Assembly (NCBI GenBank): GCA_002841435.1
Contig: PGZS01000003.1
Location: forward strand, 1 to 47,160
Length of the DNA stretch: 47,160 nt
Direction: 5' to 3'
Origin: Firmicutes bacterium HGW-Firmicutes-3
GTDB taxonomy: Bacteria; Bacillota; Clostridia; Lachnospirales; Vallitaleaceae
Both the position numbers and the translations under genes were made by a program. The notes under the pieces are model-generated. The model was not told the origin of the DNA, ran no database searches, and saw only the letters and a program-made list of their open reading frames with translations. How positions within the stretch are numbered: position 1 is the first letter of the stretch; the number at the start of each line of letters is the position of its first letter. This document shows, piece by piece, positions 5,780-27,420 of the stretch.

Positions 5780-5809
5780 TTGACAAGTAAAATTTAATAG
5801 GTGTATAAT
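5780..5809 (+). promoter_or_regulatory. Promoter of the purine-degradation operon
   Basis: A consensus TTGACA (5780-5785) is followed after 18 bases by a consensus TATAAT (5804-5809). Transcription should start near 5816, about 200 bases before the first gene. A promoter this strong fits a system controlled downstream, by the leader RNA. Confidence 0.75.
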
Positions 5810-5815
5810 AACAAT

Positions 5816-5945
5816 AGGAATATTTAATGAGACTAAACTGATTATAAAGCAATAAAAGAGGTTTAGAGGCCTTTTATATAAGACAAGTTCTTTTATAAGG
5901 GGTTTTTTTGTTACATAAGAAGTTCTACTTTTTATGTAACAAAAA
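5816..5945 (+). promoter_or_regulatory. Attenuator-type leader RNA (antiterminator/terminator)
   Basis: Between the promoter and the first gene lie mutually exclusive structures. The terminator stem is CCTTTTATATAAGA (5870-5883) against TCTTTTATAAGGGG (5889-5902), 14 positions with one mismatch and two G-U pairs, followed by seven T (5903-5909). The left arm of that stem can instead pair with ATAAAAGAGG (5852-5861), giving an antiterminator. A further stem CTAAAC/GTTTAG (5833-5838 with 5861-5866) overlaps it. A second, 19-bp hairpin (5905-5923 with 5927-5945) uses the T-run as part of its left arm. The conserved elements of the classical purine riboswitch are not present, so the ligand or protein sensed is unknown. 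Confidence 0.65.
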
Positions 5946-6016
5946 GTTTGATTTAGCGCGTACTGTGCGCATGTGGAAAGAAGACAGATTTCTATAATCT
6001 AGAGGAGGAGGGAATT

Positions 6017-6586
6017 ATGTGTGATGGTATTGTATTGGCTGGTGGTTTTTCAAGCAGAACTCAGATGAATAAATTGGAATTGACGATAAAAGGAGAACCT
6101 ATTTTACGCATTGTTGTCATGACATTACAACAAAGTTGTCATAACATTATTGTTGTAGGTGGTCATTATTATAATGAAGTTGAAAAAATGTTTAAGGATA
6201 TGGAACACGTTAGAGTAGTAAATAACCCTAACTACAATGAGGGCATGTTCAGCTCAGTTTTAACAGGCGTAGCTTATATGACTCGAGATTTTATATTGAT
6301 TCCTGGTGACTACCCTTTAATTTTAGAATCAACTTATAAAAGTATCATAAATACTGAAGGTGAGATGGTTGTACCGACTTATAAAGGTAGGAAAGGCCAT
6401 CCCATATTCATTAGGCAACATTTGATTCATCCGTTGCTCATGGAATCTCCATTGTCTAATTTAAAGAAGTTTAGAGATCGATATCAAGTGACCTACTTAC
6501 CTGTTGAGGATGAAGGTATACTCATGGATATAGATACCATCGAAGAATATGAAAGTATAAAAGCACAAATAGAAGGGAGTAATTGA
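6017..6586 (+). CDS. MobA-like molybdenum cofactor nucleotidyltransferase
   Basis: This 189-residue protein belongs to the MobA/MocA NTP-transferase family. It probably attaches CMP (MocA type) to molybdopterin for the molybdenum hydroxylases encoded downstream. The N-terminal nucleotide loop is LAGGFSSRTQMNK (about residues 7-19), the usual glycine-rich GGxSxRMGxxK motif but with Gln-Met in place of the usual Met-Gly. Metal-binding IPGDYPL (near residue 97) and the late GHP motif (KGRKGHPIFI) are also present. A strong ribosome binding site (GAGGAGG) precedes the ATG. It is the first gene of the purine operon and ends one base before the next start. CMP rather than GMP as product is inferred from the hydroxylase context. 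Confidence 0.8.
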   Translation: MCDGIVLAGGFSSRTQMNKLELTIKGEPILRIVVMTLQQSCHNIIVVGGHYYNEVEKMFKDMEHVRVVNNPNYNEGMFSSVLTGVAYMTRDFILIPGDYPLILESTYKSIINTEGEMVVPTYKGRKGHPIFIRQHLIHPLLMESPLSNLKKFRDRYQVTYLPVEDEGILMDIDTIEEYESIKAQIEGSN

Positions 6587-18216: not shown

Positions 18217-18753
18217 ATGTTAGGCGAAAAAATAAGACTAAAACGTATTGAAAAAGCCATGAGCTTAAAAGACCTTGCCGAGGCGTCCGGCTTAACTTCC
18301 GGATTTATTAGTCAGATAGAGAGAGACCTTGCCGAGCCATCCATTACTTCTTTAAGAAAGATAGCAGAAGCCTTGGAGGTAGCCGTATTTCATTTTTTTA
18401 TAGAAGAAATGAATGAAAATCCTGTGGTCAGAAAACACGAACGACAGCCCATTCAATTTCCCGGTTCAAAGGTTTCTTATGAGTTATTGTCGCCAGATTT
18501 AAACCGTCAAATGGAGACCTTTCTTGGTAAGCTTGAACCCGGTGGTGTCACTTGTGATGAACCAATGGCCCATGCAGGCGAAGAAGTGATTTTCGTTTTA
18601 GAAGGAGAAATGCTCATACGTATTGGAAATACTATCTATAACTTATCAGAAGGTGACACCATATACTATTACGCCAATATACCTCATCAGATTGAGAATC
18701 CCGGTAAAGATCTATTAAGTTTTGTATCTACAATTACCCCACCAAGATTTTAG
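18217..18753 (+). CDS. XRE-family regulator with cupin domain
   Basis: This is a 178-residue transcription factor. Residues about 1-60 form an XRE-type helix-turn-helix (MSLKDLAEASGLTSGFISQIERD), and residues about 100-175 a cupin sensor (HAGEEVIFVLEGEM, IPHQIENPG). Proteins with this layout, such as PuuR, repress catabolic genes and release DNA on binding a substrate-like ligand. Lying inside the purine operon, it probably controls it, perhaps from the promoter at 5780. No operator could be assigned. GGAGG precedes the ATG. Confidence 0.87.
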   Translation: MLGEKIRLKRIEKAMSLKDLAEASGLTSGFISQIERDLAEPSITSLRKIAEALEVAVFHFFIEEMNENPVVRKHERQPIQFPGSKVSYELLSPDLNRQMETFLGKLEPGGVTCDEPMAHAGEEVIFVLEGEMLIRIGNTIYNLSEGDTIYYYANIPHQIENPGKDLLSFVSTITPPRF

Positions 18754-26496: not shown

Positions 26497-27396
26497 CTAT
26501 ATTTGTTCAAGGGTTTGGAAGTTACTTCTAAATCGTTTTGGTGTCATATTTTTATAAAGCTTGAACTGTTCTATGAAATAACTGGTGGTAGAGAAGCCGA
26601 CGTTTAGAGCGATGTCGGTGACACTAAGCTCTGAGGTGGTCAGTAGGCTTTCAGCTTTTGAAATCCTTATAAAATTTACATAAGCACTAAAATTTCGATT
26701 CATGGCAGATTTGAAAAACCTGGAAAAATAGCTATAACTTACAGCACATAATTTTGCCATATCTTGAATAGAGATTTCTTGGTCAAAATGTTCATCCACA
26801 TAATCAAAGACTTTTTGCAAGCGTTCTATATTGGTTTTGTCAAGGGCCTGAGTTAAGTTCAAGTCGAGACCTTTTTCCTGCCAACTTCTAAGAATCCAAA
26901 GAAATACTTCACCAATGTAGGTGCGAATTGCTAACTCAAAACCATAGGATCTTTTTTGATCTTCCATGAGAATTTTTTTAATTAAATCAGGTATGGGTGT
27001 GTCGGCTGTTTCTTCATAGGTAAATAATTTTTGGTGAACAGAGGTCTTCATGGTAAAGGGAAGCACATATCTGGATTCGAATACAGACTGGGTGGTGGTA
27101 TAAAGTAACTCAGGATCAAACCGAATGACGATGTATTTGTTAATATCTTCCGAAGCGGCAAAAATATTATGAACTTCCATAGAATTTATTACTACCATAT
27201 CGCCTACACCAAAGACATAACCTTGACCATCTAAAAAGATATTGATTCGACCGGACAAACAAAACAGTATTTCAATATGGTCATGATAATGTGAACCGAC
27301 AATCAGTTTACGACCTTCAATGGCCTGAGTATGGGTTCTAAAGGGGTAAGATATACCATCTTCAATAAATTTTTCATTTTCTAAGTAGCCTTCCAT
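26497..27396 (-). CDS. AraC-family regulator with cupin sensor
   Basis: This is a 299-residue regulator. The N-terminal AraC-type cupin (HYHDHIEILFCLSG and VFGVGDMVVINSMEVH) probably binds a sugar or related ligand. The C-terminal double helix-turn-helix (SIQDMAKLCAVSYSYFSRFFK; SVTDIALNVGFSTTSYFIEQF) ends with the usual MTPKRFR. The ATG at 27396 is preferred over 27411 because AGGGAG lies 6 bases before it. It is transcribed away from the oxidoreductase operon across a short AT-rich region and most likely activates it. Confidence 0.88.
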   Translation of the reverse strand: MEGYLENEKFIEDGISYPFRTHTQAIEGRKLIVGSHYHDHIEILFCLSGRINIFLDGQGYVFGVGDMVVINSMEVHNIFAASEDINKYIVIRFDPELLYTTTQSVFESRYVLPFTMKTSVHQKLFTYEETADTPIPDLIKKILMEDQKRSYGFELAIRTYIGEVFLWILRSWQEKGLDLNLTQALDKTNIERLQKVFDYVDEHFDQEISIQDMAKLCAVSYSYFSRFFKSAMNRNFSAYVNFIRISKAESLLTTSELSVTDIALNVGFSTTSYFIEQFKLYKNMTPKRFRSNFQTLEQI

Positions 27397-27420
27397 AGGA
27401 TTCTCCCTCATGACAAATAA

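Follow-up and report, generated by a model that had tools for sequence, protein, structure and literature searches.

The leader that precedes the 20-kb purine-degradation operon in the window is most probably an ANTAR-type transcription attenuator of a purine/uric-acid operon, acted on most likely by a NitR-like protein. From sequence comparison, this explanation as a whole was given a probability of about 0.78. The window (the whole stretch of DNA analysed, 47,160 nucleotides) belongs to a draft genome of Petrocella (Vallitaleaceae), for which three congeners were found for comparison.

By default, the nascent RNA would fold into the terminator at 5867-5909 and the purine/uric-acid operon would be off. 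An active ANTAR protein, for which the likeliest candidate is the NitR-like response regulator with its gene between two glutamine synthetase genes, would bind the AANGRR hexaloop of a competing hairpin (P2), hold the left arm of the terminator and permit read-through. In this way, nitrogen would be drawn from purines as nitrogen status requires. The genus and most related leaders have only one well-formed hexaloop. In the window's genome, the A1 base of the loop is lost and an extra hairpin follows, and this copy is probably poorly responsive or set toward termination.

The mechanism itself is a known one. Within the literature searched, both the pathway targeted and the one-hairpin form seem new, and no description of NitR-type ANTAR control of purine genes was found. 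If true, the explanation would provide RNA-level nitrogen control for anaerobic uric-acid degradation, a pathway that matters for purine balance in the gut, and would add purines to the ANTAR regulon.

Promoter and downstream operon

A sigma-A promoter on the forward strand comprises TTGACA (5780-5785), an 18 bp spacer and TATAAT (5804-5809). It matches the consensus at 12 of 12 positions, as the sequence-only reading had stated, and 37 of 40 columns of the promoter region are invariant across the four Petrocella genomes. Transcription is predicted from this promoter to start at approximately 5816. The promoter is followed by a leader of approximately 90 nt, the terminator (5867-5909), a 19-bp hairpin (5904-5946) and mocA at 6017.

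The downstream operon (6017-26335, forward strand) was annotated from Pfam domains. It encodes a MocA-like transferase, two molybdenum hydroxylases, XdhC, amidohydrolases (SsnA/HyuA-like), a DHODH-FeS protein (UacX-like), a cupin-HTH regulator (18217-18753), adenine deaminase, two PALP enzymes (YgeX-like), an M20 peptidase (YgeY), a carbamoyltransferase (YgeW) and a carbamate-kinase-like protein. A gene for an AraC-type regulator follows the operon (26497-27411). The predicted products of the 20-kb operon correspond to those of the reductive uric-acid degradation gene cluster, with the same enzyme set as in PMC12507026; term searches of that paper showed no RNA-level control of the cluster.

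Terminator and competing hairpin

An intrinsic terminator is predicted on the forward strand, with its stem at 5867-5905 and a run of seven T at 5903-5909. The P2-like antiterminator hairpin, AAGAGGU[UUAGAG]GCCUUUU (5856-5875, forward strand; bracketed loop, 5863-5868), shares 5867-5875 with the left arm of the terminator. Through this overlap the two structures are mutually exclusive, here and in the sister leaders. Both had been proposed from the letters of the window, the competing structure as a pairing of 5852-5861 with 5870-5879, and both were borne out. The proposed pairing forms at nine of ten positions, and its better-supported core is 5856-5862 with 5869-5875. The fold z-score was −2.16 for the 97-nt leader alone and −4.24 for a long fold, the latter in part because the 19-bp hairpin is included.

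P2 was supported by congener alignment, pair counts and shuffles. Of 1500 dinucleotide shuffles of the window leader, one gave a hexaloop hairpin of at least 6 bp overlapping a terminator; for a congener leader (L012) the count was 2 of 1500. With A1 and G4 added, the same arrangement occurred in 0 of 1500.

The congener hairpin is AAGAGGU[AAUGRR]GCCUUUU, with a 7-bp stem, loops AAUGAG, AAUGGG and AAUGAA, and a right arm that is also the left arm of the terminator. These loops fit the eut consensus AGCAANGRRGCUY (Ramesh 2012, PMC3369931) and carry A1 and G4, which matter in both hexaloops of eut leaders (PMC3369931). A1 and G4 are also present in the P2 hexaloops of the leaders from five other genomes described below (G004, G042, G055, G024 and G068); the window's own copy departs from this, with G4 kept and A1 replaced by U. 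The class, which the sequence-only reading had left unrecognised, is thus recognisable from the congeners as an ANTAR-type hexaloop, the kind of loop to which ANTAR antiterminators bind. Of the RNA-level control by a ligand or an antiterminator protein that it had implied, attenuation was supported and the protein option fits, and the ligand (riboswitch) option gained no support.

The leader is conserved above its flanks, as two strong blocks around a variable linker. In the four-genome alignment, invariant columns numbered 23 of 23 in the 5' block, 1 of 8 in the linker, 36 of 41 in the terminator (over 5870-5911) and 19 of 31 in the spacer before mocA. The 5' block, AGGAAUAUUUAAUGAGACUAAAC (5816-5838, forward strand), contains a second AAUGAG at 5826-5831.

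The closest known systems are the EutV-controlled eut leaders of Enterococcus faecalis (PMC3369931, PMC8934654), which have the same A1/G4 P2 hexaloop (AANGRR), the same use of its right arm as the terminator left arm, mutually exclusive folds and a nitrogen theme. Three differences were noted. Petrocella and most of the sister leaders have a weak P1 (the upstream hexaloop hairpin) or none; the loop is closed by U-G in Petrocella, in G004 and in the mogA leader of G042, and by C-G in the others; and the target here is uric-acid/purine degradation.

Leaders in other genera and families

Other genera and families have the same layout ahead of molybdenum-cofactor and purine-degradation operons, and the stems show compensatory changes. 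Conservation of the alternative pairing in leaders of related operons, the absence of which had been named as a refutation, was seen in the congeners and in other genera. The mocA leader of another Vallitaleaceae genus (G004) is a textbook dual hairpin comprising P1 AAUUAA[AUAGUA]UUAAUU, a 7-nt linker and P2 AUAAGGU[AAGGAG]GCCUUUAU; its terminator is otherwise unrelated to that of Petrocella. G042 and G055 also have a hexaloop-terminator ahead of mogA and further Moco genes. In G024 one precedes a moeA-like gene and moaC, in G055 another precedes ygeX-ygeY-amidohydrolase, and in G068 one lies before the ygeX operon. Over 14 P2 hairpins (glnA and glnN included), 90.5% of cells were paired, double-sided changes occurred in five of six pairs, and the covariation score of 0.689 was above every shuffle and slide (0.360 for shuffling, no more than 0.367 for sliding). 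Because the filter used to find some of these leaders demanded paired stems, the pair counts are biased towards structure and are supportive, not independent.

A DNA search of the family for further copies of the leader gave chance matches only outside the genus. Most matches to the exact P2 pattern across the order were chance matches in coding sequence, at approximately the control rate, and the only leaders among them were those of G004, G042 and the congeners. No hexaloop-terminator was found in the mocA leaders of Mycoplasmatota-like genomes or in the ygeX leaders of more distant families, most distant ygeX genes being without one. Several more distant genomes with both ANTAR genes and mocA had no such leader near mocA.

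Three further observations were made during these searches. A hexaloop-terminator leader, AAAAGGC[AAGGGA]GCCUU, lies before a gene located after the purine genes of G042 (L126:13837). Mollicutes-like genomes (L064, L068, L070-L072, L074) have a recurrent GTAAGCG(C/T)TT-like, cre-like box just before mocA, in place of an attenuator. In two f24 genomes (L141, L142), the ygeX-like gene contains one in-frame TGA in the match, which is either selenocysteine or a sequencing error.

Number of hexaloops

A P1 hexaloop 5 to 12 nt upstream of P2 was found in G004, and no canonical P1 was found in the other leaders of this set. In Petrocella, the upstream AAUGAG is too distant and has no stable stem, so the leader is not filed as a dual-hexaloop member. 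A conventional P1 built on this invariant AAUGAG was not supported; at best it has a 7-nt loop and four A-U pairs, and it extends well only in L012. The 5816-5838 block, whose AAUGAG (5826-5831) repeats a congener P2 loop sequence, may be a candidate P1 or a recruitment site. In the glnA leaders of two genomes (G003, G000) and in the G068 leader, the predicted transcription start falls within approximately 20 nt of P2, which leaves little or no room for P1.

These one-hairpin leaders bear on the need for P1, on which the genetics of eutP and the structural study of EutV with RNA do not point the same way. P1 is required in E. faecalis eutP, whereas Walshe et al. (PMC8934654) revised the definition of the minimal ANTAR site to one hexaloop and suggested that sites of this type could occur. 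The one-hairpin leaders are candidate natural sites of this kind. We tentatively propose, at slightly less than even odds, that NitR-type ANTAR proteins, acting on single-hexaloop leaders without P1, tie anaerobic uric-acid/purine degradation and its molybdenum-cofactor genes to nitrogen status in several families of Clostridia-like bacteria. If this is true, such leaders would be naturally occurring cases of the single-hexaloop antiterminator to which the EutV-RNA structure pointed.

ANTAR proteins

Each Petrocella genome encodes two ANTAR proteins above the Pfam cut-off. In the complete congener genome (G003) there are exactly two: EutV, encoded in a eut operon, and the NitR-like response regulator, the gene for which sits between glnA and glnN (the type III glutamine synthetase gene). 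The name NitR is used here for the ANTAR type beside glutamine synthetase, as at clostridial glutamine synthetase loci. NitR matches the solved structures of EutV (6wsh/6ww6) and of another putative antiterminator (1s8n). The glnA and glnN leaders of G003 have P2 hexaloops AAAGGC. These NitR-type glutamine-synthetase leaders are like the purine leaders in having P2 hexaloops over a terminator, in the same genomes, with the ANTAR gene beside them; they differ in their loop, which is AAUGRR in the Petrocella purine leaders.

In two relatives with the leader, G004 and G055, only the NitR-type ANTAR protein was found (61% and 51% identical, respectively), although the G004 genome, at 89% completeness, may have a further ANTAR gene in its missing part. 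A family member without an ANTAR gene (G006) has mocA and no such leader. Both results favour nitrogen-status antitermination by NitR, and the NitR-like regulator is most likely the cognate protein.

In the receiver of the NitR-like protein (L057:7491-8072), the usual acidic pair near the N-terminus seems to be missing in the alignment, and the positions of the phospho-acceptor Asp and the Lys are kept. Activation may therefore not be by ordinary phosphorylation. No kinase gene was present among the flanking genes scanned near the NitR-like gene.

The window's own copy

In the window, the P2 loop reads UUAGAG; barring an assembly error in this draft genome, AAU has become UUA at 5863-5865, and A1 is lost. 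This change creates a pairing of CUAAACU (5833-5839) with GGUUUAG (5860-5866, forward strand) that was found by predicted folding and congener alignment in the window's species only, and that coexists with the terminator. It was considered as a functional P1 and rejected, as it can form only in this species. An A1-to-U change in loop 2 (L2) weakens eutP induction in E. faecalis (PMC3369931). Taken with the loss of A1 and the new pairing, this suggests that the window's copy may be impaired, responding poorly or being set toward termination. The three adjacent loop substitutions also make a perfect 6-nt inverted copy of CUAAAC (5833-5838 and 5861-5866), little over 20 nt apart, and a short template switch is a possible origin of the loop change.

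Alternative explanations

A small-molecule riboswitch for a purine, xanthine, urate or the molybdenum cofactor, with the expression platform described above, was judged very improbable. The operon makes and uses molybdenum-cofactor enzymes that act on purines and the 5' block (5816-5838) is invariant, but the approximately 40 nt ahead of P2 have no stable aptamer fold, some sister leaders (G068) have almost no RNA upstream of P2, and what is conserved corresponds to an ANTAR hexaloop. The covariance search against Rfam that had been recommended gave no match at the gathering score for the window or the congeners, and none relevant at a relaxed threshold. This silence about riboswitches and other Rfam classes means little and is not decisive alone, since the eut leaders (L056) were also missed. 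An ordinary terminator with a chance alternative pairing upstream, and no regulation, has an equally slight probability. The non-consensus loop of the window's copy would suit it; the absence of the A1/G4 arrangement from all 1500 shuffles, and the repeated occurrence of the layout, with altered stems, ahead of this pathway in several families, argue against it.

Two other readings accept an ANTAR-type leader in the genus. EutV, which is ethanolamine-responsive, could be the cognate protein in place of NitR, as it is encoded in the genus and one purine leader (L011) has the same P2 loop as eutS, AAUGAA. This is unlikely, given that G004 and G055 carry the leader with only a NitR-type ANTAR protein and that the nitrogen/purine logic favours NitR. 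A distinctly stronger candidate, although still short of an even chance, is that the window's switch has decayed to a constitutively weak, partly terminating leader, with DNA-binding regulators (cupin-HTH or AraC-type) in control. The lost A1, a CUAAACU/GGUUUAG pairing that would stabilise the terminated fold, the added hairpin and the regulator genes in and after the operon are consistent with decay. Against it, the P2 stem, terminator, promoter and upstream AAUGAG are all intact, and the genome is a draft. Decay of this one copy is compatible with NitR-type ANTAR attenuation as the best explanation for the genus.

The 19-bp hairpin and a dispersed repeat

The 19-bp hairpin (5904-5946, forward strand), which the sequence-only reading had described as trapping the T-run, is present in the window. 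It and the sequence after it, to approximately 5976, are missing in three of three congeners, in which the left-arm sequence GTTACA (GTTATA in one) is present without a partner arm. The hairpin also adjoins a dispersed repeat, and would form only after the polymerase has passed the T-run, probably too late to prevent termination. It is not part of the conserved switch, whether gained in the window or lost in the congeners, and the role assigned to it did not hold.

The repeat copy in the window (5946-5985, forward strand; core 5952-5973) lies directly after the hairpin. The repeat comprises a TTTAGCGCGYRCTNTGYRCATG core followed by AAGAAGA(C/T)TGACTT and is dispersed in Petrocella at two to four copies per genome, with 0 in a reversed control; further copies are in G000 (C55, C68, C214) and at L184-L193. 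Most copies are directly preceded by a palindrome, different in sequence each time, and some of these palindromes start in a terminator T-run. The repeat is possibly a small mobile element.
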